64,000 nt of DNA from contig NZ_CP080388.1 in assembly GCF_030036535.1 (NCBI RefSeq), positions 1 to 64,000 on the forward strand, read 5' to 3'. The notes beneath the pieces are model-generated. The model was not told where the DNA came from. It made no database searches and was given only the letters and a program-made list of their open reading frames with translations. Each line of letters opens with the position of its first letter. The first letter of the stretch is position 1. Positions 20,162 to 36,111 of this stretch are shown here, one piece after another. The position numbers and the translations under genes were made by a program. The stretch is from Agrobacterium cucumeris (lineage in GTDB: Bacteria > Pseudomonadota > Alphaproteobacteria > Rhizobiales > Rhizobiaceae).

Positions 20162-20186
20162 GACGGGGACTCCTCCAGGTTGTCCG

Positions 20187-20205
20187 GCCCGCGCTCCCTG
20201 CGGGC
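20187..20205. promoter_or_regulatory. short hairpin between the nucleoside operon and its LysR gene
   Basis: GCCCGC and GCGGGC are separated by 7 bases. On the minus strand the hairpin lies 26 bp upstream of the binding-protein ATG, just before its ribosome site, so it would be in the 5' leader; on the plus strand it lies upstream of the LysR gene. It could be an operator half or an mRNA structure. Confidence 0.3.
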
Positions 20206-20290
20206 AAAAGAAGAATTAACGTTTTACCTGGCAAAAGAAAAATTGCATTTTGTACTTAAGCCATGCCGCAATGTTATGGAAGGAAACCAG

Positions 20291-21193
20291 GTGAGACTGA
20301 AACCAAGGCAGGTCGAAGCGTTTCGAGCCGTGATGATGACCGGTGGCATTACTGCAGCGGCCGAAGCCCTGAACGTCACCCAGCCGGCCGTTAGTCGTCT
20401 TATCCGCGATCTTGAGGATATCGTGCAGATGCGGTTGTTTGAACGGATCGGCGCCAGGCTGGTTCCAACCACCGAAGCCACGCAGTTTTACCGGGAGGTC
20501 GAACGACTGTATCTCGGCCTCGACCAGATCGCCCAGGCGGCCGATGACATACGAGCACACAAGAACACCGTCTTGCGGATCGGTAGTGTCACGTCATTGG
20601 TAAGGCCTTATCTTCACAAGGCAATTGTCGAGGTGATTGGTGACCGGCTGGACATTCCGCTTGTCATCGACGTCGAAAACAGCCGCCACATCTGGGATAT
20701 GGTCGATCAGAACCGCTACGATCTCGGTCTGGTTTTCGGTTCTCCCAGAATGGCCGACAAGAATGCCACGCCTCTATACAGTTCCTATGCCGTCGCCGCA
20801 ATGACGGCAGATCACCGTCTGGCATCCCGCCGGGTCGTCACACCTGGTGACCTTCTCAACGAGCGAGTGCTCATTCCTGGCCGCAATTCTCCACTCAGGC
20901 TAGCGCTTGACCGCGCTTTCTCAATCGAAGAGCACCAACCGACAAGCACGATGGAAACGTCAATGCTGAACTGCTGCCACTTTGCATCGGCCGGCATGGG
21001 CGTCGGCATCGTGGATCATACCAGTCTGCGCTCTGCCGATGCCGAAGTGGTGGCGATACCATTCGAACCAAAGATCGAAGTGTCCTATTACGCGATACGG
21101 CCAACTGGTGCGCAAAGAATTGCTGTCCTTGATGAGTTGATTAAGCGCATACGCCAAATGATGAGAGCCGAGGAAGATCCTAATCACACCTAA
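20291..21193 (+). CDS. LysR-family regulator, probable controller of the nucleoside operon
   Basis: The GTG at 20291 has GGAAGGA about 7 bp upstream and is preferred over ATG 20276, which has no ribosome site. The 300-residue product has an N-terminal HTH (QVEAFRAVMMTGGITAAAEALN and VTQPAVSRLIRDLE as landmarks) and a substrate-binding domain. The sequence is near the OccR/NocR-type LysR group common in Agrobacterium. It is divergent from the ABC operon at 20161 across 129 bp, the expected position for its regulator; the ligand would be a catabolic intermediate. Confidence 0.9.
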   Translation: MRLKPRQVEAFRAVMMTGGITAAAEALNVTQPAVSRLIRDLEDIVQMRLFERIGARLVPTTEATQFYREVERLYLGLDQIAQAADDIRAHKNTVLRIGSVTSLVRPYLHKAIVEVIGDRLDIPLVIDVENSRHIWDMVDQNRYDLGLVFGSPRMADKNATPLYSSYAVAAMTADHRLASRRVVTPGDLLNERVLIPGRNSPLRLALDRAFSIEEHQPTSTMETSMLNCCHFASAGMGVGIVDHTSLRSADAEVVAIPFEPKIEVSYYAIRPTGAQRIAVLDELIKRIRQMMRAEEDPNHT

Positions 21194-21790: not shown

Positions 21791-21810
21791 ACTGATTTTC
21801 TACAAAATTA

Positions 21811-21859
21811 GTAGATATAGAATGACCGGTCTTCCTTTATACCGCTTGAAGGCCTTACG
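21811..21859 (+). promoter_or_regulatory. shared promoter/operator element, copy A (before the ketopantoate-reductase-like/TetR operon)
   Basis: The 18-bp core at 21819-21836 fits the consensus AGAAWRACCNGTCTTYCT shared with copies at 28209-28226 and 34933-34950. Extended to 26 bp, this copy differs from copy C at 4 positions. The centre GACCGGTC is a perfect palindrome, like many TetR operators. CTTCCT at its end could act as a weak -35, with a less clear -10 17 bp later at 21854-21859. It controls the operon that contains the TetR gene, which fits autoregulation. A nearby TCTAC-N7-GTAGA repeat lies at 21799-21815. The leader to the ATG at 21992 contains a small hairpin CTCCGG/CCGGAG at 21948-21964. 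Confidence 0.6.
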
Positions 21860-21991
21860 ATCCGTTCCAGACCGCTTCTGAACCGCATCCTCCCGCCGTC
21901 CTCAATCGCCACCGCACAGACCGCCGAACCAATCAATAACCGAAATCCTCCGGAAAATCCGGAGCGTAAAAGACAGGACGAGAAACGACAG

Positions 21992-23020
21992 ATGCCACGT
22001 TACGTTATCATTGGCGCCGGCGCGGTGGGCGCGAGCCTTGCAGCGCAGTTCGCACTTTCCGGCATTGACTATGCGCTTTTCGGACGGGGTGCCCAGATCA
22101 GCCATATCAGGCAGCATGGCCTCACCTTCCAGCGCCCCGCAGAGACGCGGCAGATCGATCTGAATGTCTTCGACCTGACGGATCTTCCGGAATTGACCCC
22201 GAACGATATACTTCTGCTCACGGTGAAAGCACAGGATGCCGTAAGCGCGCTCGCCTTCTGGTCCTGGCAAAGCGTCTCGAACACGACGACATCGGCAGCG
22301 GCAAACCTGCCTATCGTAACTTTTCAAAATGGACTGGCGACCGAAGCAAATGCACTGAGAACATTTGCCCGGGTCTATGGTGCAAGCATTCTGACACCGG
22401 CGCGGTTTACCGAAACCGGCAAGGTGGTGGTGGGCGGCGAGCCGCAATTGGGCATCGTGACAGTCGGTCGCTTTCCGCTTGGACAGGATGACGTGACAGC
22501 GCAGGTCACGGCGGACCTGAACAGGGCTGGATATCTTGCCGAGGCAAGTGACGATATCCGCCGCTGGAAAGCAGCAAAGCTCCTTCACAACGTTCGAAAT
22601 GCACTGGAACTTTTCGAGGGTCCGGGCGATCTGAACGACAGGATCAGCGCGGCTCTGGTGGATGAGGCCCGCCATGTGCTGGAAGCGGCAGGCTACACCT
22701 TTGCCTCACCCTCCGAGCGAACCGTCGACATCTCGAACTGGCGGGTTGCGCCCAACAGCGGGATTCATCCGGGCCAGCAATCGACATGGCAGAGTTTCAG
22801 GCGCGGCGCCTCGAGCGAAGTGGATTTCCTCAACGGAGAAATCGTTCTGCTGGGCCGGATTCATGGCGTTCCGACGCCTTTTAACGAGGCCGTTCAAACG
22901 CTGGCCGGAAAGCTGGCACATCAGGGCGGATTTTCAAAGCCGCTGCCGCTCGATGCGATCACATCTCTCATCGCCGTCCCGGACCCGGCGGCACATACCA
23001 GTCCTGCCGTCCCTTCATGA
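21992..23020 (+). CDS. ketopantoate-reductase-like (ApbA/PanE family) NADP-dependent oxidoreductase
   Basis: 342 residues. The Rossmann dinucleotide motif GAGAVG is at 8-13, followed by LFGRGAQ and LLLTVKAQD in the positions expected for ApbA/PanE; the C-terminal helical domain is present (RGASSEVDFLNGEIV, a hallmark of the family near 270, and PTPFNEAVQTL). It reduces a 2-oxo acid. The genomic context is catabolic, so it is probably a paralogue rather than the pantothenate enzyme. First gene of an operon with the TetR regulator, 49 bp before it. Confidence 0.88.
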   Translation: MPRYVIIGAGAVGASLAAQFALSGIDYALFGRGAQISHIRQHGLTFQRPAETRQIDLNVFDLTDLPELTPNDILLLTVKAQDAVSALAFWSWQSVSNTTTSAAANLPIVTFQNGLATEANALRTFARVYGASILTPARFTETGKVVVGGEPQLGIVTVGRFPLGQDDVTAQVTADLNRAGYLAEASDDIRRWKAAKLLHNVRNALELFEGPGDLNDRISAALVDEARHVLEAAGYTFASPSERTVDISNWRVAPNSGIHPGQQSTWQSFRRGASSEVDFLNGEIVLLGRIHGVPTPFNEAVQTLAGKLAHQGGFSKPLPLDAITSLIAVPDPAAHTSPAVPS

Positions 23021-23069
23021 CCGGCAATCCGTATCAGTGCGACTTTTGAAACGACAGTGTGAAACGATA

Positions 23070-23642
23070 ATGCGAGAAGCCATATCAGACCATATCCTCA
23101 CCGCCGCTGGCACGCTCTTCTACCGCGAAGGCATCCGGGCTGTCGGCATAGATCGGATCATCGAAGAGGCGAATGTTGCGAAGGCGACGCTTTATCGGCA
23201 TTTCCCGTCAAAGGATCATCTCGTTGCGGCCTATCTGCAGGCGCGGCACGAGCGAGTGATATACTCGCTTCAAAAGGTACTGGAGGAGGACATGGCTCCG
23301 AAGGAGCAGATCCGGTTGATCTTCGAGCAGCTCCACGAAAAGGCTGATAGCCCGGATTTTCGCGGCTGTGCCTTTGCTCTTGCGGTTGCGGAACATGGCG
23401 AGTCCGAGCGTGTCGTGTTTGTAGCGCGTGCCCATAAGGCAAAGGTCAGGGACGTGTTTGGCGCTGTTCTGGCAAGAGCCGGCAGCACGGTGGAAATTGC
23501 CGCTGCCCATCTGTCACTTCTCTACGAAGGAGCCTTGGCGACCGTTGCCGTCGGACGCGATCCCACGGCGGTCCTGATTGCGCGAGACTGTGCTCTCTCC
23601 GTTTTCGACACCGCCGCCGCCTCCACCAATCAACCCAACTGA
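23070..23642 (+). CDS. TetR-family transcriptional regulator
   Basis: 190 residues from ATG 23070. The N-terminal HTH is classic TetR: ILTAAGTLFYREGIRAVGID, then VAKATLYRHFPSKDHLVAAYL (two landmarks, about 9-60). The C-terminal domain is helical with two Cys-poor segments, so no redox sensing is obvious. It is co-transcribed with the reductase and isomerase genes and is the only regulator gene in the 21.9-38.0 kb block. The palindromic centre of the element upstream of its own operon, repeated before two other transcription units, makes it the best candidate to bind those sites. Confidence 0.92.
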   Translation: MREAISDHILTAAGTLFYREGIRAVGIDRIIEEANVAKATLYRHFPSKDHLVAAYLQARHERVIYSLQKVLEEDMAPKEQIRLIFEQLHEKADSPDFRGCAFALAVAEHGESERVVFVARAHKAKVRDVFGAVLARAGSTVEIAAAHLSLLYEGALATVAVGRDPTAVLIARDCALSVFDTAAASTNQPN

Positions 23643-23654
23643 AAGCAGCAGATC

Positions 23655-24257
23655 ATGACAAGGACGATCGATTATTTTTTCAGCATCGGCTCTCCCTGGG
23701 CCTTCATCGGCCTTCAACCGTTTGCTGCGCTCGCGAAAGAACAGGGCGCCACGATCCGCCCCCATGTCATTCCGCTGATCGAGGAAAACGGCGGCATTTA
23801 TTCCCGAAACCGGCCCGAGGCCAGACGTGCCTACTGGATCAGGGATTTGAAGCGCTGGGCGGCATTGCGCGGAAAAGTGCTCAATTTTGATAATCGCGCA
23901 GCTCTCTCGGATCCAGCACCCGCCGGCCTGATGGTGGCGGCGGCGATCGAGACGGGCGATGACTGGCTGACGCTGGCGGCTGCCCTTCAGGAAGCCTTCT
24001 GGGTTCACGGCAAAGACATCGGCCGGGCGGACGTGCGTCAGGCGATTGCGAAAGCCGCAGGCTTTGATAGTGCCGCACTCGATAAGCATGGCCAGAGCGA
24101 TGCGGTTACAGCATTGCAAAAGGCCAGCTTCGAAGCTGCCAGGGCAGCCGGCGTGTTCGGGGTGCCGACCTATAGCTATCAGGATGAACTCTACTGGGGG
24201 CAGGACAGCCTTCCATTCCTCGAGCGTCATCTCCGGGGCGAAAAGCTCGCCGCCTGA
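23655..24257 (+). CDS. 2-hydroxychromene-2-carboxylate isomerase-like protein (DsbA/GST-kappa fold)
   Basis: 200 residues of the HCCA-isomerase family: FFSIGSPWAFIGL at 8-20 with the active-site Ser13 where thioredoxins have Cys, RPHVIPLIEENGGIYSRN, and a cis-Pro loop GVFGVPTYSY near 165-175. The enzyme family is glutathione-dependent and is related to kappa glutathione transferases. In a block with sulfur-type monooxygenases a glutathione-linked step is plausible. It starts 12 bp after the TetR gene. Confidence 0.88.
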   Translation: MTRTIDYFFSIGSPWAFIGLQPFAALAKEQGATIRPHVIPLIEENGGIYSRNRPEARRAYWIRDLKRWAALRGKVLNFDNRAALSDPAPAGLMVAAAIETGDDWLTLAAALQEAFWVHGKDIGRADVRQAIAKAAGFDSAALDKHGQSDAVTALQKASFEAARAAGVFGVPTYSYQDELYWGQDSLPFLERHLRGEKLAA

Positions 24258-24367
24258 TATCACCACCGAAGGCGGAGACAGTCTGGCGTTATGCCGGGGC
24301 GCGCTTCGCCTTCAATGTTTGCAAGTCTGTCGTGGCATTTTGCTGCCGGGCTCCCATGGAATCTCTT

Positions 24368-25744
24368 ATGCCTGACCTGTCCCCTTCTCTCATCCAATCT
24401 CTGGGGGACCTCCTCGGGGAGCGTCTTTCAACGTCCCTGGCACTGCGCGAGCAGCATGGGCGCGGCGAAGCACATCATGCAGCCGTGTTTCCCGACGCGG
24501 TCGCTTTCGCTGAAACCACCTCCGAAGTATCCGAGATCGTGCGACTATGTGCGGCGGAAGGGGTGCCCGTCATCGCTTTCGGCGCCGGCACTTCGCTTGA
24601 GGGGCATTTGACAGCTGTCAATGGCGGGGTCTCAATCGACCTTTCGCGCATGTCGAAGATCGCCCGTATCAGCGGTGAAGATCTGGATTGCACGGTTGAG
24701 GCCGGTGTCACGCGGGAGCAATTGAACACATATCTGCGCGACATGGGATTGTTCTTTCCCATCGATCCCGGCGCAAACGCCTCGATTGGCGGCATGGCCG
24801 CAACCCGCGCTTCGGGAACCAATGCCGTCCGCTACGGAACGATGCGGGAAAACGTGCTCGGGCTGACCGTGGTGCTGCCGACCGGTCAGATCATCAAAAC
24901 CGGCGGCCGCGCCAGAAAATCTTCCGCCGGATATGACCTGACGCGGCTGTTTGTGGGTTCGGAAGGAACGCTGGGGATCATCACCGAAATAACGCTTCGT
25001 CTCTACGGAATTCCGGAAACCATCTCGGCGGCGCTCTGCTCTTTCGAGAGCGTCGAACAGGCGGTGGTGGCGGCCATTCAGGTCGTGCAGCTTGGCATCC
25101 CGGTCGCCCGCATGGAGCTTATGGACCGTGGCCTGATCAGGGCCGTCAACGCCTATTCCGGGCTGGACCTGAAGATAAAGGATACGCTGGCTTTCGAGTT
25201 TCACGGCTCGCCCGCCGGCGTTCAGGAGCAGGTCGACATGGTATCCGCCATCGTAGAGGAACATGGCGGCAAGGATTTCGAGTGGGCCAATGCGCCTGAA
25301 GATCGCAACCGTCTCTGGAAAGCGAGGCATAGTGCGTTTTATGCCGTCGTATCGCAGAGGCCAAACGCCAAAGGCTGGTCTTCGGATGTCTGTGTTCCAG
25401 TGTCGCAGCTCAGCAATTGCATATTAAAGACCCGCGAACTTCTGAAAGATTGCAGCGTACCGGCGGCTATCCTCGGCCATGTCGGCGACGGCAACTATCA
25501 TGTCGTCTTCGCGGTTGATCCCGGTAATGCGGAAGAACTCGGCGAAGTGGCGGCGATCAACAAGAAGATGGTGCGATACGCGCTGTCTGTCGGCGGCACC
25601 TCGACCGGTGAACATGGTGTCGGCACCGGCAAGATCGCTTATCTGCGCGAGGAACATGGCGACGCGGTCGAGCTGATGGCGCTCATCAAACATGCGGTCG
25701 ATCCTGCCGGCATCATGAATCCCGGGAAAATCCTGCCGAACTAG
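24368..25744 (+). CDS. FAD-linked oxidase of the D-lactate/glycolate dehydrogenase (GlcD) family
   Basis: 458 residues from ATG 24368; in-frame ATG codons at 24332 and 24356 would add residues with no likeness to the family. FAD_binding_4 motifs: VIAFGAGTSLEGH, FPIDPGANASIGGMAATRASG and FVGSEGTLGIITE. The C-terminal FAD-oxidase domain has GHVGDGNYH (metal/substrate His), and STGEHGVGTGK near the end. It oxidises a D-2-hydroxy acid. The reductase-like protein in the same operon could make or use such an acid. It follows the isomerase by 110 bp. Confidence 0.93.
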   Translation: MPDLSPSLIQSLGDLLGERLSTSLALREQHGRGEAHHAAVFPDAVAFAETTSEVSEIVRLCAAEGVPVIAFGAGTSLEGHLTAVNGGVSIDLSRMSKIARISGEDLDCTVEAGVTREQLNTYLRDMGLFFPIDPGANASIGGMAATRASGTNAVRYGTMRENVLGLTVVLPTGQIIKTGGRARKSSAGYDLTRLFVGSEGTLGIITEITLRLYGIPETISAALCSFESVEQAVVAAIQVVQLGIPVARMELMDRGLIRAVNAYSGLDLKIKDTLAFEFHGSPAGVQEQVDMVSAIVEEHGGKDFEWANAPEDRNRLWKARHSAFYAVVSQRPNAKGWSSDVCVPVSQLSNCILKTRELLKDCSVPAAILGHVGDGNYHVVFAVDPGNAEELGEVAAINKKMVRYALSVGGTSTGEHGVGTGKIAYLREEHGDAVELMALIKHAVDPAGIMNPGKILPN

Positions 25745-25782
25745 AATTGCCACTTTGCAGTTGATGATCGTGAGGCCATGCG

Positions 25783-28188
25783 ATGAATTCCTTCAAGACT
25801 CACAGCTCCCACTGGGGCGCATTTTCCGGACGCCTTGCAAATGGGCGACTGGAGATAGAGCCTCACCCGGATGACCCTCACCCATCACCACTGCTGGGCA
25901 ATCTTCCGGCGGTGGCCTATAGCCCGGCTCGTGTCCGGCGGCCTGCCGTCCGGCGGGGCTGGCTTGAACGCGAGACCGGCCACGCGCAGCGACGCGGCGC
26001 TGACGACTACGTCGAGGTCAGCTGGGCCGAAGCGACGAGGCTGGTCGCGGATGAGTTGAAGCGGGTCTATGACCATCATGGCCCGAGCGCGATATTCGGC
26101 GGCTCCTATGGCTGGTCGAGTGCTGGCCGGTTTCATCATGCACAGAGCCAGATTCACCGCTTCTTGAATGTTCTTGGCGGATATGTCCGGTCCGTCAACA
26201 CATATAGTTCCGGCGCGGCCATGGTTATAATCCCCCATGTGCTTGGACCGTATGACAGTTTCGACCGCAAGAGCGTGACCTGGGATGCGATCGAACGCAG
26301 CAGTGAGCTGGTGCTCGCATTCGGCGGGATGGCAATCAAGAATGCCGATGTCCACGGCGGAGGGATCAGCACGCACACGGTCCGGCAGAAACTGGCCGGC
26401 GCGAGGGCTCGCGGTGCGAGTTTCACATTCATCAGCCCGCTGGCCAACGATTTTCCCAGTGATATGAATGCCGAGTGGCTTCCCATTATTCCCGGTACGG
26501 ACGTGGCGATGATGCTCGGGCTTGCGCACGTCCTCGTCACCGAAGAGCTGCACGACCGGGCGTTTCTGGATCATTATACGGCTGGATATGACCGGTTCGA
26601 GAACTATCTTCTTGGCAGGGAGGACGGCCAGCACAAAAGCCCGGAATGGGCGGCCGCGATCTGCAACATCGACCCGGAGACGATCCGCAAGCTGGCGCGG
26701 AAGATGGCGAGTTCGAGAACCCTGATCACGGTCAGCCACTCGCTTCAGCGGGCCGATTATGGCGAACAGCCGGTGTGGATGGGCATTGTCCTTGCCGCCA
26801 TGCTTGGCCAGATCGGACTGGACGGCGGCGGATTTTCCTACTCCCTCGGCGCGTTGGGCAATATCGGCAAGAACCTGCTCGCCGTTCCCTTGCCAACGCT
26901 ACAGCAATTCAAGAACCCCGTTCCGGACTATATTCCCTGCGCGCGCATCGCCGATATGCTGCTCAATCCCGGTGCCGAGTTCCATTACAACGGGCACACG
27001 CTTCACTATCCCGATATCCGGCTTGTCTATTGGGCGGGCGGCAATCCATTTCACCACCACCAGGATATCAACCGGCTGCGAACCGCTTTCCGCCTTCCTG
27101 AAACGATCATCGTCCACGAGTCGGCCTGGACTTCGACCGCCCGGCACGCCGATATCGTGCTACCCGCCACGACCACGCTTGAACGTGACGACATCGGCGC
27201 TGCCGATCGCGATCCCCTGATGATCGCCATGAAGCGGCTGATCGCCCCCGTTGGCGAAGCACGCGACGATTATGAGATATTCGCCGGCATTGCGCGGGAA
27301 CTTGGCAGGTTCGATGCCTTTACCGAAAACCGCAGCAGCGGAGAATGGCTCGCCTTCCTGTACGAGACGACCCGTCAGGCGCTTGCGGCGGGCGGCCACG
27401 ACGCACCGGACTTTGAGACCTTCTGGAAGCGAGGGGAGCTGCTCCTTCCAGTCAAGCCAGACGACGGTGGCCCGGCGCGCGCTTTCCTTCACGACTCCGG
27501 GACGAAGCCGCTGGCGACACCGTCAGGAAAAATCGAAATCTTTTCCGAGACTGTCGAGAGCTTCGGATATGATGACTGCAAAGGTCATCCGCGCTGGTAT
27601 CCGCCAAGAATGGAGACGCCCGATGATGCCCGCCTCCATCCCCTGCATCTTGTCTGCAATCAGCCGTATCAACGTCTGCACAGCCAGCTGGACTATGGCG
27701 ATTTCAGCCGTTCGACCAAGATCAGGGATCGGGAACCTGTCCGTATCCATCCGGCCGACGCTTTGACCCGCGGAATAGCTGACGGCGATATCGTCAGGCT
27801 TTTTAATGCGCGCGGCAGCTGTCTCGCTGGCGCCGTCATCAGTGAAGACGTCATGCCGGGCGTGATGCAGCTTGCCACCGGCGCATGGTTCGAGCCACAG
27901 GATTCTGCGGCGGAGAATGCCATCTGCATCCATGGCAATCCCAATGTCCTGACCCGCGACATCGGCACTTCGAAACTGTCGCAGGGTTCAACCGGCCAGA
28001 TTGCGAAGGTGGCGATTGAGCTTTTCACCGGCGACTTGCCACCGGTCAGGGTTTTCGAAGCCATGACATTTGCGCCGCGTGACAGAGCGTCTTGGTCGCC
28101 AAACCATCATCGACCGCCGGGGCGAGACGGCAATTCAAGTGCGGCTGAAACACCAATCCAAACAGTCGGCAAAATGGCGATAAAATAA
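25783..28188 (+). CDS. molybdopterin-dependent oxidoreductase, BisC/DMSO-reductase type
   Basis: 801 residues without a Tat signal, so cytoplasmic like BisC. The DMSO-reductase family pattern is clear: HWGAFSGRLANGR, FGGSYGWSSAGRFHHAQ at 105-121, TYSSGAAMVIIPH with the Ser ligand region at 142-143, YWAGGNPFHHHQD near 410-420, and TTLERDDIGAAD. The C-terminal molybdopterin-dinucleotide domain begins near 620 (CNQPYQRLHSQLDYGDFS). No Fe-S Cys motif is present at the N-terminus, as expected for this branch. BisC enzymes reduce S- and N-oxides such as biotin or methionine sulfoxide. Start behind GAGG, 38 bp after the oxidase gene. Confidence 0.93.
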   Translation: MNSFKTHSSHWGAFSGRLANGRLEIEPHPDDPHPSPLLGNLPAVAYSPARVRRPAVRRGWLERETGHAQRRGADDYVEVSWAEATRLVADELKRVYDHHGPSAIFGGSYGWSSAGRFHHAQSQIHRFLNVLGGYVRSVNTYSSGAAMVIIPHVLGPYDSFDRKSVTWDAIERSSELVLAFGGMAIKNADVHGGGISTHTVRQKLAGARARGASFTFISPLANDFPSDMNAEWLPIIPGTDVAMMLGLAHVLVTEELHDRAFLDHYTAGYDRFENYLLGREDGQHKSPEWAAAICNIDPETIRKLARKMASSRTLITVSHSLQRADYGEQPVWMGIVLAAMLGQIGLDGGGFSYSLGALGNIGKNLLAVPLPTLQQFKNPVPDYIPCARIADMLLNPGAEFHYNGHTLHYPDIRLVYWAGGNPFHHHQDINRLRTAFRLPETIIVHESAWTSTARHADIVLPATTTLERDDIGAADRDPLMIAMKRLIAPVGEARDDYEIFAGIARELGRFDAFTENRSSGEWLAFLYETTRQALAAGGHDAPDFETFWKRGELLLPVKPDDGGPARAFLHDSGTKPLATPSGKIEIFSETVESFGYDDCKGHPRWYPPRMETPDDARLHPLHLVCNQPYQRLHSQLDYGDFSRSTKIRDREPVRIHPADALTRGIADGDIVRLFNARGSCLAGAVISEDVMPGVMQLATGAWFEPQDSAAENAICIHGNPNVLTRDIGTSKLSQGSTGQIAKVAIELFTGDLPPVRVFEAMTFAPRDRASWSPNHHRPPGRDGNSSAAETPIQTVGKMAIK

Positions 28189-28200
28189 TTCACTAAATCG

Positions 28201-28249
28201 ATAGAAAAAGAATAACCAGTCTTTCTCCCTCACGCCCGGCTGCTAGGTT
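28201..28249 (+). promoter_or_regulatory. shared promoter/operator element, copy B (before the ABC importer operon)
   Basis: The core at 28209-28226 fits AGAAWRACCNGTCTTYCT. Extended to 28201-28226 it matches copy C at 21 of 26 positions. CTTTCT (28221-28226) and TAGGTT (28244-28249) are 17 bp apart, a plausible weak -35/-10 pair. Transcription would start near 28256 and give a leader of about 270 nt before the binding-protein gene. Confidence 0.6.
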
Positions 28250-28285
28250 ATGGGCAAGATAAACACCGCAACGAGGGATCGCGTC

Positions 28286-28351
28286 ATGACTGGAATATGT
28301 AGAAGCGGGCGCGCTCCTCAGCCAAGCGAACTCCCACGAGCCGCTCGCTAA
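28286..28351 (+). CDS. short leader peptide (21 residues) upstream of the ABC importer operon
   Basis: An ATG at 28286 follows GAGGG at 28273-28277 with an 8-base spacing, a better ribosome site than many genes here. The peptide starts MTGICRSGR, contains one Cys codon (TGT) and several Arg, and ends at a TAA at 28349-28351. It begins about 30 nt after the predicted transcription start and 174 nt before the binding-protein ATG. The position, size and Cys-Arg content fit a regulatory leader peptide of a sulfur-related operon. This is inference; no published match is claimed. Confidence 0.5.
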   Translation: MTGICRSGRAPQPSELPRAAR

Positions 28352-28453
28352 CCCTCGCGACGCCCAACCCGACTGCCCAATGAATTCAAGCATTCTCCCG
28401 CTCGGCTGAAAGGCCGACGCGGCAACGGTTTGACATGCCTGCTGCCAATGACG

Positions 28454-28514
28454 GCGGCCGCATGTGCGTCCGCAGGAGATGCCGAAATTGCAACGAAAAA
28501 ACTTTGAATTTTTC
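28454..28514 (+). promoter_or_regulatory. leader hairpins between the short peptide and the binding-protein gene
   Basis: Two structures are visible. At 28454-28473 GCGG-CG pairs with CG-CCGC around a small loop (one mismatch). At 28495-28514 GAAAAA pairs with TTTTTC around ACTTTGAA, ending 2-3 bases before the AGGA ribosome site of the next gene. A third small stem TCGGC/GCCGA lies around 28413-28428. An in-frame-to-nothing Cys-rich stretch (Met-Cys-Val, then two more Cys) is also readable from 28462. They could couple leader translation to downstream expression. Confidence 0.4.
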
Positions 28515-28525
28515 AGGATCATATC

Positions 28526-30181
28526 ATGACAAGACGTTCTTTCTCATTCTCCCTGTCGCGTCGCCGGCTGCTTTTCACGGCCTCTCTGGCAGTCTCCGCC
28601 TCGCTGTTTTTATCAACAGCGGCACCTCTGAGCGCACTGGCGGCGGATACGCCGCGCGATGGCGGTGACATCACCTTTCTGATCGATTCACTGGGCGACA
28701 CGTGGATCCCAAACAACAGTGCCATCTCCAGTTTTCAGGGCCACATCTGGGGTCATGTGACGGACAAGCTGCTTTACGTCGATGCGGAAGGCAAGGTCAG
28801 CCCATGGATCGCCGAACGCTGGGAGCAGAACGACACCGCAACGGAATTCACCCTTCACCTCAAAAGCGGCGTGACTTTCTCGGATGGCGAACCGCTTGAT
28901 GCGAAGGCCGTCGTCGCCAATCTCGACATCTGGTATGCCGGCCGCAAGAACGAGGGGATCAACCCGATCGGCCTCTTCCCCAAGACCTACGATCACGCCG
29001 AAGCGGTTGATGCCACGACGGTCAAGGTTTTCTTCAAGAAGCCTACACTCGGGTTCATTCCAACGCTTGGCTATCACGGTTCCATCCTGATCTCTCCCAA
29101 GAGCATCGCCCAGCCTGCCGGCCAGCAGGCTGACCTCAGCAAGACCGCCGGCAGCGGACCTTACGTGGTGGAGTCCTGGAAAGAGGGCGACCATGTCACC
29201 CTCGTCAAGCGCAAGGATTATAATTGGGGGCCAGCCGCCGTCGGCCACACCGGACCCGCCTATCTCGATACCATCACCTACAAACTTGTCTCGGAGCCAT
29301 CCCTTCGCGTCGCCTCCGTTCAGTCCGGTCAGGCGGATGTCGCCTACAACGCCTCGCCCCAGGAACTGAAATCGCTGAAGGAAGAAGGCTTCACTGTTGC
29401 GACCCCGCGTTATCTCGGCTTCGTCAACGGCTGGGCCGTCAACACCAAGCTACAGCCCTATGATGACGTGAAGATTCGCCAGGCGCTCCAGGCCGGCATC
29501 AACCGCCAGGAAATTATCGACACCGTCTATACGCAGGACTGGAGGCTAGCGACGTCGTTCATTCAGAGCAACGTCCCGGGTGCCACGGATCACAGCGATC
29601 TCCTCGCCTATAACCCGGAAAAGTCAGAGAAGCTTTTGGAGGAAGCCGGATGGATCAAGGGCGCTGACGGTATTCGCGTGAAAGATGGAAAATCGCTGGA
29701 GCTGACGATCCATTCCAATCCTTATCTGGCAACCTCGAAATCCGTTGATGAGCTTATTGCCCAGCAGCTTGGCAGGCTCGGATGGAAGGTTAACATCAGG
29801 GCTTATGACGTTGTCACCTTTGGCGAGAAGGTCAAATTCGGTGGTGCAGCGGTTCCCACATATGAAGTCACCCGCAGCTTCATCGATGCCGGCACGGTCG
29901 CCAGCATCCTGACCAATGCCAATAATGGCGAGAACTGGTTTGCACTGGATGAGCGTGATGCGAAGCTCAATGATCTGCGCGACAAAATCGCTGGCGCGGG
30001 TTCCGTCGAGGACAGAAAGCCTCTTCTGGACGACCTGCAGAAATACGTACTGGAACAGGGTTACTTCATCCCACGCACGCAAATCGTCCAGCGCATCTAC
30101 GTGCAATCGCCGAAGCTGAAGGGCGAAGTCTATAACGGCGTCGCTTACGCCAGCTATTACACAGCGTTCATTGCCGAATGA
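28526..30181 (+). CDS. ABC transporter periplasmic binding protein, family 5 (SBP_bac_5)
   Basis: 551 residues. The N-terminus has SRRRLLFTASLA, a possible Tat-type twin-arginine signal, with cleavage near ALAA. Family 5 landmarks: LLYVDAEGKVSPWIAERWE, TEFTLHLKSGVTFSDGEPLDAKAVVANLDIW (in parts), GSGPYVVESW and IRQALQAGINRQEIIDTVY. The sequence recalls the binding-protein group that travels with luciferase-type monooxygenases (the KPN_01854/KPN_01858 families), from memory. It starts the operon binding protein-permease-permease-ATPase-monooxygenase. The ligand is probably a small organosulfur compound or peptide-like conjugate. Confidence 0.92.
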   Translation: MTRRSFSFSLSRRRLLFTASLAVSASLFLSTAAPLSALAADTPRDGGDITFLIDSLGDTWIPNNSAISSFQGHIWGHVTDKLLYVDAEGKVSPWIAERWEQNDTATEFTLHLKSGVTFSDGEPLDAKAVVANLDIWYAGRKNEGINPIGLFPKTYDHAEAVDATTVKVFFKKPTLGFIPTLGYHGSILISPKSIAQPAGQQADLSKTAGSGPYVVESWKEGDHVTLVKRKDYNWGPAAVGHTGPAYLDTITYKLVSEPSLRVASVQSGQADVAYNASPQELKSLKEEGFTVATPRYLGFVNGWAVNTKLQPYDDVKIRQALQAGINRQEIIDTVYTQDWRLATSFIQSNVPGATDHSDLLAYNPEKSEKLLEEAGWIKGADGIRVKDGKSLELTIHSNPYLATSKSVDELIAQQLGRLGWKVNIRAYDVVTFGEKVKFGGAAVPTYEVTRSFIDAGTVASILTNANNGENWFALDERDAKLNDLRDKIAGAGSVEDRKPLLDDLQKYVLEQGYFIPRTQIVQRIYVQSPKLKGEVYNGVAYASYYTAFIAE

Positions 30182-30219
30182 CGCCAGCACCCACCAAGTA
30201 ACGTCAAGGAGGTGACGGC

Positions 30220-31230
30220 ATGAGCAATGCCTACCTAACCTACGCCGCAAAGCGGCTCGGCCAGGCGATCGTCGTCATCCTCCTGGCCTATGTCTTCACC
30301 TTCGTGGTCGTCAGCGTCCTGCCCGGCGACCCGATCACCAGCGTTCTGCGCAACCCGCAGAACGGTTTCACCGAGCAGGAGATCGCCGAAATCATTGCTG
30401 CACAGGGGCTGGACAGGCCGATCATCGTGCAGCTCTGGCACTCCCTGTCGGCATTCCTGACGGGCGATCTCGGCATTTCCATGCGCTCCAACCGACCGGT
30501 CTCGACACTCATTGCCGAGGTGCTGCCATCCACGCTGGTTTTGGCCTCCGCCGGGCTAACGGTCGCCTTGATCCTCGCCTTTGCCGTTGCCTACGGCACC
30601 CAGGTCGTGCCGAAGCGTTACGGCCAAGGACTGCTGCGCGCTTTCCCATCTCTGTTCCTGTCGACACCTAATTTCGTCATCGGCCTGTTTCTGATCCACC
30701 TCTTCGGTTTTCAGCTCAGGCTGTTCCGCGTCATCGAACCGGACAGCTTCTGGGCCACGCTGTTTGCGGCGATCACCATCGGCATACCGTTTTCCGCACA
30801 GATCGCGGAAGTTCTGATTGCCAATCTCGATCATGAGGCCGAGCAGGATTACGCAGCGGTTGCCCGCAGTCGCGGCATCGGGCCGAGACGGCTTTTCGCA
30901 ACACATCTCCTCAAGCCCGCCTCCTTGCCCGTCGTGACGGTTATCGCTTTGACCGTTGGCGAACTTCTGGGCAACTCGCTGATCACGGAAACGGTATTCG
31001 GCCGGACCGGTATCGGCAGTCTCGTACAGCGTTCCGTCAGCACCCAGGACCTGCCGGTCCTGCAGGCGATCGTCTCGCTGGGAGCCGTGGTGTTTGTCAT
31101 CGTCAACCTCGTCGCCGATCTTCTCTATCCGCTGCTCGATCCACGGGTGAAAATTATCGTTGGCCGAAAACGCCGCCTGTCGACCATCGACGACACGTCG
31201 CTTGGCCTAGAAACGGGGGCCAAACCATGA
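30220..31230 (+). CDS. ABC transporter permease, DppB type
   Basis: 336 residues, six predicted helices. The N-terminus YAAKRLGQAIVVILLAYVF, the EAA loop EQDYAAVARSRGIGPRRLFATHLLKP and the signature VFGRTGIGSLVQRSVSTQDLPV mark the DppB family. It has the best ribosome site of the operon (AAGGAGGTGA about 7 bp before the ATG), 38 bp after the binding-protein stop. The stop overlaps the next permease start by 4 bp. Confidence 0.94.
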   Translation: MSNAYLTYAAKRLGQAIVVILLAYVFTFVVVSVLPGDPITSVLRNPQNGFTEQEIAEIIAAQGLDRPIIVQLWHSLSAFLTGDLGISMRSNRPVSTLIAEVLPSTLVLASAGLTVALILAFAVAYGTQVVPKRYGQGLLRAFPSLFLSTPNFVIGLFLIHLFGFQLRLFRVIEPDSFWATLFAAITIGIPFSAQIAEVLIANLDHEAEQDYAAVARSRGIGPRRLFATHLLKPASLPVVTVIALTVGELLGNSLITETVFGRTGIGSLVQRSVSTQDLPVLQAIVSLGAVVFVIVNLVADLLYPLLDPRVKIIVGRKRRLSTIDDTSLGLETGAKP

Positions 31231-32072
31231 GCCTTATCTCCAGCCCGGTTTCCGTCAGCAATCCGTTGGAGAGACTGAAAGGTCTCAATATAACTGCGAC
31301 GGTCGCCCTCTCCCTGCTTGTCATCGCCATCGTCGTCGCCTGGTCGGTTGCACCGCAGCTCTTCACAAGTCTGAGCCCGGTCAACGGTGTCCCGGCCAAC
31401 AAGCTCCTAGCGCCCAGTGCCGCACATTGGTTCGGCACGGATCATCTGGGGCGCGATCTCTACACGCGCGTCGTTTATGGCACCGCGTCCTCGGTATCGA
31501 GCGCGCTCGTCGCCGTCGTCATTGGCGTGTTGGTCGGCGGCGTGATCGGTCTGCTCGCTGGATTTTTCGGCGGATGGGTGGATATCGTCTTTGCGCGTTT
31601 TGTCGACGTACTGCTGTCCATCCCGAAGTTCCTGCTCGCGGTCATCATCGTCACGGCAATCGGCTTCGAGACGATCAACGCCGCCATTGCGACAGGCATA
31701 TCGGCGATCGCCTTCTTCGCCCGCGTGGCGCGTTCGGAGGTCATCAAGACCCGCCAGGCGACCTTCGTGGAGGCATCTTTCCTCGCAGGTGGCTCACGCG
31801 GATACATCGTGCTGAGACATGTCCTGCCAAACGCATCTCGCTCGATGCTGCCGCTTGCCGTCCTGCAATTCGGCGAGTCCATTCTTGTCATCGCCAGCCT
31901 CGCCTTCCTCGGCTACGGCGATCCGCCCCCCTCCTCCGACTGGGGCCTGCTGATTTCAATCGGCAAGGACTACCTCAAATGGCCCTGGCTCGTTTATGCC
32001 CCCGCGTTCGTTACGATCGTGACCGTCCTCTCTGTCAACAGGATCAGCCGATGGCTTCGCAAATCGCACTGA
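31227..32072 (+). CDS. ABC transporter permease, DppC type
   Basis: 281 residues with six predicted helices. DppC landmarks: HWFGTDHLGRDLYTRVVYG near 71-89, the EAA loop ATFVEASFLAGGSRGYIVLRHVLPNA (in parts), and LGYGDPPPSSDWGLLISIG near the end. ATGA overlap with the first permease at its start, and a 22-bp overlap with the ATPase gene at its end, show tight coupling. Confidence 0.94.
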   Translation: MSLISSPVSVSNPLERLKGLNITATVALSLLVIAIVVAWSVAPQLFTSLSPVNGVPANKLLAPSAAHWFGTDHLGRDLYTRVVYGTASSVSSALVAVVIGVLVGGVIGLLAGFFGGWVDIVFARFVDVLLSIPKFLLAVIIVTAIGFETINAAIATGISAIAFFARVARSEVIKTRQATFVEASFLAGGSRGYIVLRHVLPNASRSMLPLAVLQFGESILVIASLAFLGYGDPPPSSDWGLLISIGKDYLKWPWLVYAPAFVTIVTVLSVNRISRWLRKSH

Positions 32073-33769
32073 AAACAGCGCCAATCCTTCCCGAGTTCGT
32101 GGCGGCGTCTCCACAACACGCGACGCCCCTCATCGCGGTGGAAAATCTTGTCGTTGCCTACCGGAGGCAGGAGGTCGTCCATAATGTCGGCTTCGAAATC
32201 GGGCGCGGCGAAAGCCTTGCCCTCATCGGAGAATCCGGTTCTGGAAAATCGACAATCGCGAAGGCTGTGCTGCGGCTTCTTCCCAACGGTGCGAACGCTA
32301 CGGGTCAGGTCGTTTTCGACAGGCAGAATATTTTGGCATTGCCGGAACGGCGCTTCAGGCCGTATCGCGGCCGCGAAATCGGCTTCGTGCCGCAGGATCC
32401 CGGCAACTCCCTCAACCCTGTGAGAACAATCGGCGCGCAAGCACTCGAAGCGGCAGCGCTGACCGAAGAGGTCAATCCGGCGATCCGCAAGGCACTTATC
32501 CTCGAAACATTCGCCAAAGTGGGTCTCGACAATCCGCAACGGGTTTACGATTCCTATCCACATCAACTGTCCGGAGGCATGTTGCAGCGCGTGCTGATCG
32601 CTCTGGCAATATTGCCGCGTCCTGCCCTGCTGGTGGCGGACGAGCCGACCTCGGCGCTCGACGTCACAATCCAGAAACGCATCCTCGATCTCCTGTCCCG
32701 CCTTCGGGATGAGCTGAACATCAGCCTGCTTCTCATTACCCATGATCTCGCGATAGCGGCAGAGCGGGCAGATAAGCTCGTTGTGCTGAAGAACGGCGTC
32801 GTGCAGGAGGCAGGCAAAACGTCTGCCGTTTTCTCCTCCCCTTCCTCTTCCTATGCGAAGAAACTCCATGGGGACGTGCCAGCCCTCAACCCTGACCGCT
32901 ATGCAAAGTTTCGCGATCCGGGGTTCGGTCTCCTGAAGGGTGATAAGTCGCCGAAGATTGCGGTAGAGGGTGTCACCAAACGTTTCACCGTGGATGGCAA
33001 AACCCTGACGGCGGTGGACAATATTTCATTTACGGTTCCGGCAGGCACGACCCATGCGCTCGTCGGCGAATCCGGCTCCGGCAAGACGACGACGATCCGC
33101 CTGCTGCTGGGGCTCGAAGAGCCGGAAAGCGGCACAATCACGGTTGCCGACGAGACCGTCACGAGCAAAAGCCGGGCTTCGCTCCGTTCTGTCTGGCGGC
33201 ATCTTCAACTGGTTTACCAGAACCCGTTTACGTCACTCGACCCGACGTGGAAGGTGGGACAGCTTGTGCGTGAACCACTCGATCGGTTCGAGATCGGGAC
33301 GCCGAAAGAGCGCTCCGAGCGGGTACGGGAAGCTCTCGCGAATGTCGGCTTGAGTGAGCATTTGCTGGAACGCAAACCGTCGGCTCTCTCCGGCGGGCAG
33401 CGTCAACGTGTGGCGATCGCCCGCTCGCTGGTCCTCAAACCGGATGTGATTGTGCTGGACGAACCCACATCCGCTCTTGATGTCAGCGTTCAGGCTGACA
33501 TCGTCGAGGTTCTGCTGTCGCTGCAGGCCAAGCTCGGCCTGACCTATGTCTTCGTTTCGCATGACCTTGCCCTGGTCCGGCAACTTGCGCATAGCGTTTC
33601 GGTGATGCAGCGGGGACGCATCGTCGAGCATGGAGCCGTCACCGAGATTTTCGGCAATCCGAGACACGAATATACCGCGTCGCTGCTGAACTCCATCCCG
33701 TCGGGCATTGCCGGAACGGTTCGCGTTCCCGCGGTCCGGCACACTCTGCGGAAGGAGCAACTCGCATGA
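32051..33769 (+). CDS. fused two-domain ABC transporter ATPase, dipeptide type
   Basis: 572 residues from ATG 32051, which lies inside the end of the permease gene; the frame is open further upstream but only as a shadow of the permease. Two cassettes: Walker A GESGSGKST at 60-68 and GESGSGKTT near 339-347, signatures LSGGMLQR and LSGGQRQR, Walker B LLVADEPTSALD and VIVLDEPTSALD. Both sites look competent. The stop overlaps the following monooxygenase start by 4 bp, tying catabolism to uptake. Confidence 0.95.
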   Translation: MASQIALKTAPILPEFVAASPQHATPLIAVENLVVAYRRQEVVHNVGFEIGRGESLALIGESGSGKSTIAKAVLRLLPNGANATGQVVFDRQNILALPERRFRPYRGREIGFVPQDPGNSLNPVRTIGAQALEAAALTEEVNPAIRKALILETFAKVGLDNPQRVYDSYPHQLSGGMLQRVLIALAILPRPALLVADEPTSALDVTIQKRILDLLSRLRDELNISLLLITHDLAIAAERADKLVVLKNGVVQEAGKTSAVFSSPSSSYAKKLHGDVPALNPDRYAKFRDPGFGLLKGDKSPKIAVEGVTKRFTVDGKTLTAVDNISFTVPAGTTHALVGESGSGKTTTIRLLLGLEEPESGTITVADETVTSKSRASLRSVWRHLQLVYQNPFTSLDPTWKVGQLVREPLDRFEIGTPKERSERVREALANVGLSEHLLERKPSALSGGQRQRVAIARSLVLKPDVIVLDEPTSALDVSVQADIVEVLLSLQAKLGLTYVFVSHDLALVRQLAHSVSVMQRGRIVEHGAVTEIFGNPRHEYTASLLNSIPSGIAGTVRVPAVRHTLRKEQLA

Positions 33770-34893
33770 ATATTGCAGCACCTTCCCGCGACCTTCCCGC
33801 GTTATTTCGACCTAAGCAGCGGCTTGGCTTCAATACGCGGGTGTCGTTCAACGACGATGATGGTCCGGCACAGGGGTTGCGACAGGGCATTGAACTGTTC
33901 AGGCAGGCGGAAAAGCTGGGATATCAATCAGGCTGGGCCTATCAGCGTCACTTCGATCATTATCTGTCTTCCCCGTTGCCCTTCTTCGCGGCGGTCGGCC
34001 AGCATACGCGACACATCACGCTCGGCTCCGCCGTCATTCCGATGCGTTATCAGGATCCCATCCTTCTGGCCGAGGCGGCAGGAACGACCGACCTCTTGAT
34101 CGACGGCCGACTTGAACTGGCGATTTCGACCGGGGCCAACGGTGCGTTTGACGCCGTCTTCGGAACAGTCGATGCCGATGCGCGAACGGAGGCAAAACGT
34201 CGCCAGTCGCGCTTCCTCGCAGCCATTGCCGGAGATGTATTGCACACTGTTACGGAGCGGGACCAAGGGGCGCCTCTGGGAGCCGAATTGCGGGTTACGC
34301 CGCACAGCCCAACCTTGCGGAACCGCATACGACAGGGCTCTGCCAGCATCGATTCCGCCATCCAGGCCGCCGAACTTGGTATCGGCCTGATTTCAGGAAC
34401 CGTCCTTCACGATCACGCCGAAGGCGAGACATTCGGTCAGTATCAGGCACGGATCATCGACGCCTATCGCACCCATTGGCTTCGCATCTGGAAGACGCCG
34501 CCGCCGCCCGTCGCCGTTGCAGCTTCCATTCTGGTCGGGACCACCGCCGAACTGCGTGAGAAATATGCCGCTTACGACCTCGAGCGCCGCACGGTGGGAA
34601 TTGCCGCGTCACGCCCGAAGGGTGCGTTGGCTCCTGCCGGCCAACCGGTCGGTGCGCAGATTTCTCCCGTTTTTCAAGGTACACCGGACGAGGTTATCGA
34701 GAGCATATTGAGCGACCCGGGACTGGCGACCGCAGATGAACTCGTTCTGTTTCTGCCACCCGCTTTCGCATTGCCAGAAAACATACGATTGCTCTCCGAT
34801 CTTGCAACGACCGTCGCTCCATCTCTGGGATGGACGCCTGCTCCGGATCACGAAATGCCGTCACAGACGACAATCCAAGGTTCCAGGCAGTAA
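33766..34893 (+). CDS. FMN-dependent luciferase-like monooxygenase (LLM class)
   Basis: 375 residues, TIM-barrel bacterial-luciferase fold: FRQAEKLGYQSGWAYQRHFDHYLSSP (in parts), TRHITLGSAVIPMRYQDPILLAEAAGTTDLL and DGRLELAISTG. It resembles the KPN_01858 group of putative monooxygenases found with peptide-type ABC importers; that assignment is from memory. It needs reduced FMN, which the reductase at 37456 could supply. It is the last gene of the ABC operon, with a 4-bp overlap. Confidence 0.9.
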   Translation: MNIAAPSRDLPALFRPKQRLGFNTRVSFNDDDGPAQGLRQGIELFRQAEKLGYQSGWAYQRHFDHYLSSPLPFFAAVGQHTRHITLGSAVIPMRYQDPILLAEAAGTTDLLIDGRLELAISTGANGAFDAVFGTVDADARTEAKRRQSRFLAAIAGDVLHTVTERDQGAPLGAELRVTPHSPTLRNRIRQGSASIDSAIQAAELGIGLISGTVLHDHAEGETFGQYQARIIDAYRTHWLRIWKTPPPPVAVAASILVGTTAELREKYAAYDLERRTVGIAASRPKGALAPAGQPVGAQISPVFQGTPDEVIESILSDPGLATADELVLFLPPAFALPENIRLLSDLATTVAPSLGWTPAPDHEMPSQTTIQGSRQ

Positions 34894-34924
34894 GGATAGT
34901 CGGGCAATATTTTCTACATATTCC

Positions 34925-34973
34925 ATAGAAATAGAAAGACCTGTCTTCCTCATATGCCACGCCGGCATTAGCT
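34925..34973 (+). promoter_or_regulatory. shared promoter/operator element, copy C (before the second monooxygenase operon)
   Basis: The core at 34933-34950 fits AGAAWRACCNGTCTTYCT. AGAC-CT-GTCT at its centre is near-palindromic. CTTCCT (34945-34950) and TTAGCT (34968-34973) are 17 bp apart, and the ATG at 35008 is about 28 nt beyond the expected transcription start. After the core, CACGCC-GGC is also shared with copy B. Confidence 0.6.
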
Positions 34974-35007
34974 TTTACCCGATATCCAGAAACACCAAGG
35001 AGCTCCC

Positions 35008-36111
35008 ATGGCTGCGGAATTCATCAGCGTCAGCTTTCCCAACGCGTCCAATGATCTGAACCCCATCCCGGATGCTCCGGTCGATCCGCTCTTCCTGGAA
35101 CGTTATGCGCGTGCACTGGACGACTACGGGTTCAACTACACGCTCATTCCCTACTCCTCGTCCTCGTTCGATCCCTTCACATTGGGCGCGACGGTGCTTG
35201 CGCATACGAAGAATATCAAGATCATCGTCGCACTCCGGCCCAACACCGTTTATCCGACGGTTGCGGCCAAATCTCTCGCCACGCTCGACCAGTTGAGCGG
35301 TGGCCGCGTCGTCGTCCACTTCATCGCGGGCGGAAGCGACGAGGAGCAGGCGCGCGAGGGAGATTTCCTCAACAAGGAAGAGCGTTACGAGCGGCAGGAA
35401 GAATATATCCGCATACTTCGTCTTGCCTGGACGTCAACCGAGCCCTTCGATTTCGACGGCAAATATTACCAGTTCAAGCAGTTTCGCAGCGCCGTACGTC
35501 CCACCAACGGCCTGATCCCGATTTCGCTCGGCGGCTCGTCGGATGCCGCCTATCGTATCGGCGGCTCGTTGTGCGACATTTTCGGCCTCTGGGGCGAACC
35601 GCTGGCTGAAACCAAGCAGCAGATTGACCGCATCTACGCCGAAGCCGCAAAAGCGGGTCGAACCGATCGCCCGCGTATCTGGGTCACCTTCCGGCCAATC
35701 GTGGCTGAAACGGATGAACTGGCCTGGGACAAGGCGCACAGGGTTCTCGACCGTCTGAACGAGAACCGCCAGAAGGGTCTTTCCCGCGCGCCGGTCAACG
35801 CAACACCACCCGCTAATATCGGCTCCCAGCGCCTGCTCGATATCGCCAAACGCGGCGATGTCCATGACCGCGCGCTCTGGTATCCGACGGTCACCGCAAC
35901 CAATGCAAGCGGCGCGACAACCGCTCTGGTCGGATCACCCCGCACAATCGCCGACTCCATTCTCGACTATATTGATCTCGGCGCCGATCTGATTTCGATC
36001 CGTGGATACGACAATTATAACGATGCCGTCGACTACGGACGATATATCCTGCCCCTCGTCCGCGAGGGTATTCGCCAACGTGAAGAGGCAAAGAAGAAGG
36101 CCGCCGCGTGA
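35008..36111 (+). CDS. LLM-class flavin monooxygenase, alkanesulfonate-monooxygenase-like (SsuD type)
   Basis: 367 residues. SsuD-type landmarks: LDDYGFNYTLIPYSSSSFDPF, IKIIVALRPNTVYPTVAAKSLATLDQLSGGR (in parts), HFIAGGSDEEQAREGDFLNKEERYERQEEY and PISLGGSSDAAYRIGG. Such enzymes use reduced FMN and oxygen to cleave C-S bonds of sulfonates or sulfones. It begins a separate transcription unit behind copy C of the shared element, with AAGGAG 7 bp before the ATG. Confidence 0.92.
   Translation: MAAEFISVSFPNASNDLNPIPDAPVDPLFLERYARALDDYGFNYTLIPYSSSSFDPFTLGATVLAHTKNIKIIVALRPNTVYPTVAAKSLATLDQLSGGRVVVHFIAGGSDEEQAREGDFLNKEERYERQEEYIRILRLAWTSTEPFDFDGKYYQFKQFRSAVRPTNGLIPISLGGSSDAAYRIGGSLCDIFGLWGEPLAETKQQIDRIYAEAAKAGRTDRPRIWVTFRPIVAETDELAWDKAHRVLDRLNENRQKGLSRAPVNATPPANIGSQRLLDIAKRGDVHDRALWYPTVTATNASGATTALVGSPRTIADSILDYIDLGADLISIRGYDNYNDAVDYGRYILPLVREGIRQREEAKKKAAA

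Follow-up and report, generated by a model that had tools for sequence, protein, structure and literature searches.

Organization of the gene cluster

The window analysed here, a stretch of 64,000 nucleotides of Agrobacterium cucumeris DNA (contig NZ_CP080388.1), contains a cluster of oxidoreductase, importer and regulator genes whose three units are each preceded by a copy of the same near-palindromic sequence. As the initial annotation had it, the copies lie before the reductase/TetR unit, the ABC importer unit and the SsuD-like unit. The features of the cluster are as follows.

21819-21836, + strand: site A, candidate TetR operator, AGAATGACCGGTCTTCCT, with halves AGAATGACC and GGTCTTCCT; 5′ of the apbA-tetR-dsbA-FAD oxidase-bisC genes
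21992-23020, + strand: ApbA/PanE-like reductase, first gene after site A
23073-23642, + strand: TetR-family regulator of 189 aa, proposed binder of sites A-C; Pfam TetR_N at 1.5e-15
23655-24257, + strand: DsbA-like protein (PF01323)
24371-25744, + strand: GlcD-like FAD-linked oxidase, start codon provisional
25783-28188, + strand: BisC-family-like S/N-oxide reductase; TIGR00509 at 927 bits, below the cut-off of 1017.55
28209-28226, + strand: site B, candidate TetR operator, AGAATAACCAGTCTTTCT; 5′ of the ABC importer operon
28526-30181, + strand: solute-binding protein (PF00496), first gene of the importer unit
33766-34893, + strand: luciferase-like monooxygenase, last gene 5′ of site C
34933-34950, + strand: site C, candidate TetR operator, AGAAAGACCTGTCTTCCT; 5′ of the SsuD-like operon
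35008-36111, + strand: SsuD/SfnG-like monooxygenase, first gene after site C; TIGR03565 at 1e-58, below cut-off
36225-37406, + strand: acyl-CoA-dehydrogenase-like (SfnB/DszC-like) protein, start codon provisional
37456-38016, + strand: MsuE-like FMN reductase; TIGR03566 at 209.5 bits, cut-off 212.5

The TetR_N domain (PF00440) is N-terminal and scores 57.1 bits against a cut-off of 24, and the transport genes of the importer unit, which is of the peptide type, extend to 33769. An NCBIfam scan of ten proteins returned none at the curated cut-off, and the label 'organosulfur' used below therefore denotes family resemblance only. Just 5′ of site A lies a LysR-type gene (20180-21193), divergent from a solute-binding-protein-like gene (18611-20161). 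Considered as a regulator of the cluster, this LysR-type gene was rejected, as it has no tblastn match (1e-10) in the 23 loci L048-L070; since these loci hold 20 other clusters of the genus, the gene falls outside the conserved unit.

Sequence and specificity of the three sites

The repeat had been described as a 26-mer with a palindromic centre, and its three copies are indeed found at 21811-21836, 28201-28226 and 34925-34950. Agreement is 22/26 for the pair AC and 21/26 for BC, matching the reported 21-22 positions, and 20/26 for AB, with 19 positions common to all three copies. The symmetrical unit within each is an 18-bp core, a near-palindrome with the consensus AGAAAGAC-NN-GTCTTTCT from which each copy departs at one or two positions (A 14/16, B 14/16, C 15/16). 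In site B the left half reads AAC instead of GAC, which counts against TetR as the binder. The conserved stretch reaches further 5′ than the 26-mer.

With respect to specificity, no other 26-mer on either strand of the window agrees with any copy at more than 17/26 positions, in keeping with the original reading, which saw no copy in other intergenic regions. With as many as 3 mismatches allowed, the 18-bp core has 7 matches in the window, six of which are sites A-C on both strands and the seventh (3 mismatches) a position inside the BisC-like ORF; 100 shuffles gave a mean of 0.54 and a maximum of 4 matches, and the core is thus far above chance in the window. Across the 5.7-Mb genome the outcome depends on stringency. 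The core as first defined is found without mismatch at sites A-C only, and allowing 1 mismatch adds none, whereas at up to 3 mismatches the core has 63 matches against 58 for a reversed-pattern control, and the symmetric pattern 26 against 40. At this stringency neither pattern stands out from its control, so that only close matches are informative. The two best matches outside the window, with 2 mismatches (C2:1423030 and C2:814189), were set aside, as both overlap program-called ORFs; the former agrees with the palindrome at 14/16 positions, equal to A and B.

Co-occurrence of the palindrome and TetR within the genus

A TetR orthologue is present in 23 of the 39 genomes of the genus. When Y is allowed at one position of the core, exact matches number 67 in the 39 genomes, compared with 4 for the reversed control, and every one of the 67 is confined to this cluster. 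This looser core occurs in all 23 TetR-bearing genomes and in just 1 of the 16 TetR-less ones (G002). We read the clusters of the window and of 20 others among the 23 TetR-bearing genomes (that of G024 lies on two contigs; the other two genomes, G061 and G062, have three exact core matches each), and in all of them A, B and C are each found at the expected place with 0-1 mismatch.

The importer gene is present in 25 of the 39 genomes, compared with 23 for TetR, which identifies the clusters of G002 and G023 as TetR-less. In G002 (locus L069) there is no TetR match at E≤1e-20 and apbA is followed directly by bisC; site B is intact, and A and C are degraded to 10/16 and 9/16, respectively. G023 (locus L107) is without tetR, and its site B is degraded, yet only to 12/16; the SsuD-like gene was not found in the stretch of G023 that was read. 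Overall, the palindrome is degraded in three and intact in one of the four promoter regions of these two clusters.

These observations bear directly on the identity of the binder, for which the initial annotation had offered either the local TetR protein or an unlinked sulfur regulator. In favour of the latter, the cluster resembles sulfur-scavenging genes, which are usually under global regulators, and G002 retains an exact site B despite the absence of a TetR match; the sole explanation that we can offer for this retention is that TetR may have been lost recently. Against it stand the confinement of all exact cores to the cluster and the degradation of three of the four TetR-less promoter regions, along with the evidence from rearranged clusters and distant homologues given below. 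As the binder of the palindrome an unlinked regulator is, in our estimation, very unlikely, despite the single intact site of TetR-less G002.

The palindrome beyond the genus

A family sample of 394 genomes includes 14 outside the genus with a TetR protein of at least 68% identity, and sites of at least 13/16 are found in 13 of these 14 loci. The exception is L101 (genome G290), where TetR is 72% identical and no site of at least 13/16 lies within 20 kb. Among loci L120-L149, drawn from the listed 80 of 512 relatives, L145 (Pseudochelatococcus), L146 and L149 encode TetR proteins of 63-69% identity and have no site within 12.5 kb. Named records extend the combination of site and TetR to Rhizobium, Neorhizobium, Shinella, Xaviernesmea and Ferranicluibacter. 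In total, the palindrome at ≥14/16 occupies 91 positions in 36 sequences (677,861 b), and 167 control palindromes made by permuting the same letters averaged 0.38 positions at this threshold, with at most 18, a control that measures specificity and does not yield a probability, since the loci are orthologous and hence dependent. The A, B and C variants are largely position-specific across genera, which indicates that the copies are old. At site C of G361 (L093:16630-16647, tetR orientation) the centre is changed to AGAACGGTCTGTCTTCCT although TetR is present, and in this it stands apart from the other C sites listed.

Rearranged clusters place the palindrome beside the regulator gene itself. 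Specifically, in 21 distinct contexts it lies 61-105 nt 5′ of tetR, three times as a perfect 16/16 match. Some of these rearranged loci have no mapped cluster gene preceding tetR (for example L096, L099 and L102), and others have apbA just 5′ of it (for example L097, L098 and L122-L125). Little besides the palindrome is conserved in the stretch 5′ of tetR in such clusters, an arrangement that argues against an unlinked regulator as the binder.

A related dyad is also associated with distant homologues of the protein. Of 50 homologues with 36-55% identity, 25 carry AGAC-NN-GTCT within 160 nt 5′ of tetR, compared with 7 of 2916 background windows, although these 50 loci (L150-L199) include many from Mesorhizobium and cyanobacteria and are thus not independent. 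Those with the dyad share the core without the outer AGAA arm, and the only other frequent 4+4 palindrome 5′ of distant homologues, that of ACAG (26), is part of the AGAC-NN-GTCT site. The dyad was not found 5′ of the remaining half of the 50, including both Variovorax homologues (54-55%). That the core is common to half of the distant TetR homologues again speaks against an unlinked regulator. As separate observations, the palindrome 5′ of the homologue's own gene in half of L150-L199 is CAGAC-CT-GTCTG-like and spans proteobacteria, cyanobacteria and actinobacteria, and two palindrome copies lie 5′ of the tetR homologue in L152, L178 and L182.

Taken together, the co-occurrence within the genus, the copies before tetR and the related dyad in half of the distant homologues lend good support to the proposal of a local regulon with a local TetR, and the palindrome is very probably the operator of the TetR protein encoded at 23073-23642.

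A two-part promoter

In terms of promoter architecture, each site in the window is accompanied by an AT-rich element on its 5′ side and a candidate -10 on its 3′ side:

21798-21816, + strand: AT-rich dyad of site A, TTCTA-N9-TAGAT
21856-21861, + strand: inferred -10 of promoter A, TACGAT, weaker, 19 bp after the palindrome
28182-28208, + strand: AT-rich element of site B, AAAATAAT...GATAGAAAA, AAAATAAT-N11-ATAGAAA, without an exact left TTCTA arm
28244-28249, + strand: inferred -10 of promoter B, TAGGTT, 17 bp after the palindrome; preceded by TGC, as in the extended -10 type
34912-34930, + strand: AT-rich dyad of site C, TTCTA-N9-TAGAA
34969-34974, + strand: inferred -10 of promoter C, TAGCTT, 18 bp after the palindrome

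The earlier suggestion of a -10 after a 17-bp spacer is accurate for B and right in substance for the others, the spacer being 18 bp at C and 19 bp at the weaker A. With up to 3 mismatches allowed, the upstream element has 3 matches in the genome, namely C, A and one elsewhere.

We compared sites before the enzyme and transporter operons (structural contexts) with those directly before tetR, counting contexts with identical 90 nt once. For the counts, two of the 104 structural contexts were dropped (the L098 copy 5′ of apbA and the L093 copy 5′ of ssuD), which leaves 102, and two of the 23 tetR contexts (L136 and L139, each more than 120 nt from the gene), which leaves 21; these last two carry TAGA and resemble operon promoters. 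In structural contexts, TAnnnT follows the palindrome by 16-19 bp in 97 of 102 cases (shuffled mean 4.9, maximum 12, 200 shuffles) and the 34-nt tract 5′ of the palindrome averages 72% AT (n=102). At the 21 tetR-proximal sites, the upstream tract averages 48% AT and TAnnnT stands at promoter spacing in 1 of 21; TA at 17-19 bp is present in 7 of these 21, compared with 100 of the 102 structural contexts. TAGA occupies a fixed place 5′ of the core in 20/24 apbA, 41/44 importer and 31/35 ssuD contexts, compared with 2/23 for tetR. The full dyad TTCTA-N9-TAGAA is exact in 11/23 A-type, 30/34 C-type and 0/44 B-type contexts (21/23, 31/34 and 29/44 at ≤2 mismatches), and 5′ of tetR in 1/23 (3/23 at ≤2 mismatches). 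Within the tetR-proximal copies, mean information per position is 1.51 bits for the dyad versus 0.33 for the AT-rich element.

The conservation of the AT-rich tract and the -10 alongside the core at structural promoters is what would be expected if the repeat were a promoter only, that is, a UP element plus -35 spread by duplication and having no dedicated binder. This explanation is extremely unlikely, however, as the tetR-proximal copies keep the dyad without the AT-rich element and nearly always without the -10 motif, and the position-specific A, B and C variants mark the copies as old. Natural rearrangement instead resolves two modules, a palindrome that accompanies tetR, and an AT-rich element found largely at enzyme and transporter promoters. 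Sequence comparison indicates that, across rhizobia, the palindrome belongs to a larger conserved promoter of two parts, with an AT-rich element ending in TAGAAA on its 5′ side and a candidate TAnnnT -10 17-19 bp to its 3′ side.

In other genera the combination of palindrome and AT-rich element also precedes further transcription units, the gene names here being assigned by eye from the translations. It is found 5′ of a different acyl-CoA-dehydrogenase-like gene (L103:10391-10408), of a GMC-oxidoreductase-like/SsuA-like operon (L106, reverse complement, 6826-6843) and of another unit at L122:317-334, L123:321-338, L124:319-336 and L125:308-325, which as read in L122 encodes an iron-siderophore-type (FecBCD-type) ABC transporter and a DmoA/NtaA-like monooxygenase. 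In the count of distinct sites, eight beyond the structural and tetR contexts have no mapped gene within 520 nt; one in L106 and four in L122-L125 precede another operon, that of L052 is inside bisC, that of L099 is in an unmapped stretch, and the next gene in L126 is unmapped.

The binding site of LysR-type regulators, among them CysB and Cbl, is a T-N11-A dyad near -60. We tentatively suggest that the AT-rich element 5′ of the structural operators could be the site of a sulfur-limitation activator of Rhizobiaceae. An unlinked sulfur regulator, very unlikely for the palindrome, may have its place at this separate element, part of which the 26-mer first described had taken in.

A model for regulation by TetR

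In the model that we infer for binding, repression, ligand, +1 positions and upstream factor, a TetR dimer would bind AGAAAGAC-NN-GTCTTTCT at each of the three promoters, placing the right half-site at -35, 17-19 bp 5′ of the -10. Without ligand, TetR would most likely exclude RNA polymerase by occlusion of the -35 region. The units repressed would be the operon that includes tetR, the ABC importer/monooxygenase operon after site B and the SsuD-like/SfnB-like/MsuE-like operon after site C; release of TetR would probably be brought about by either an organosulfur substrate or an intermediate of the pathway. At promoter C, the predicted -10 at 34969-34974 would put +1 near 34981, the operator centre at about -40 and the upstream dyad at about -60. 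The AT-rich element around -60 is likely a second input, either an activator site or a UP-type contact, because the -35 supplied by the right half of the operator is a poor hexamer.

A poor -35 hexamer, together with the fixed spacing of 16-19 bp between palindrome and -10 (97/102), could also be expected if TetR bound the same site as an activator in a class-II position near -40, a variant that falls within the probability we give to TetR as the binder. The TetR-less clusters speak against it: site C of G002 and site B of G023 keep the AT-rich element, the right-half CTTCC or CTTTCT and a TAnnnT -10, and the dyad itself is degraded. Such retention of promoter parts favours TetR as a dispensable repressor, on the basis of two promoters only. 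In addition, the TetR-family proteins studied are mostly repressors, according to the part of PMC3511530 consulted. Activation by TetR is accordingly unlikely, and the protein is likely a repressor.

Relationship to known systems

The proposed arrangement resembles that of TetR-family local autorepressors, in which a small TetR_N protein is encoded within the cluster that it regulates and an 18-bp dyad is found at its targets, including its own promoter. It differs in that three promoters here each carry a second conserved element, and in that the predicted targets, instead of an efflux pump, comprise an importer together with oxidoreductases of organosulfur type. The type of control would thus be ordinary, TetR local autorepression, and the novelty would lie in this particular TetR-type local regulon and its second promoter element.

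McbR, a member of the TetR family with the motif TAGAC-N6-GTCTA, likewise combines repression of sulphur genes with GAC/GTC-type half-sites. That spacing is not found at sites A-C, where the (G/A)AC and GTC half-sites are 2 bp apart, and the regulon proposed here is local, whereas McbR of Corynebacterium glutamicum is a global repressor of sulphur metabolism according to the part of PMC2580772 consulted; the comparison concerns function and motif, and no orthology is claimed. The same part of that source assigns control of sulfonate utilisation to SsuR/CysR in C. glutamicum and to Cbl/CysB in Escherichia coli (PMC2580772). Such dedicated sulfonate regulators are candidate analogues of the upstream second input, although they are activators of the ROK and LysR types and no such protein is tied to the AT-rich element here. 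The TetR groups FabR, FadP, LiuQ, PsrA and RutR of Proteobacteria have regulons defined, as here, by genome comparison, and in the part of the source consulted none is on organosulfur genes (PMC5343134).

A literature search at the level of titles and the beginnings of abstracts returned nothing on this TetR or its operator, which is no proof of absence. To the extent of that search, the present analysis predicts an operator, its regulator and their targets for a rhizobial cluster of organosulfur type with no prior study found, and a simple screen, by binding or with a reporter, could identify the inducing compound. Natural rearrangements and losses further show the promoter dividing into a site for the regulator and another conserved input. 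If that input is indeed the site of a sulfur-limitation activator, each promoter would integrate a substrate signal, delivered by TetR, with a nutritional signal.
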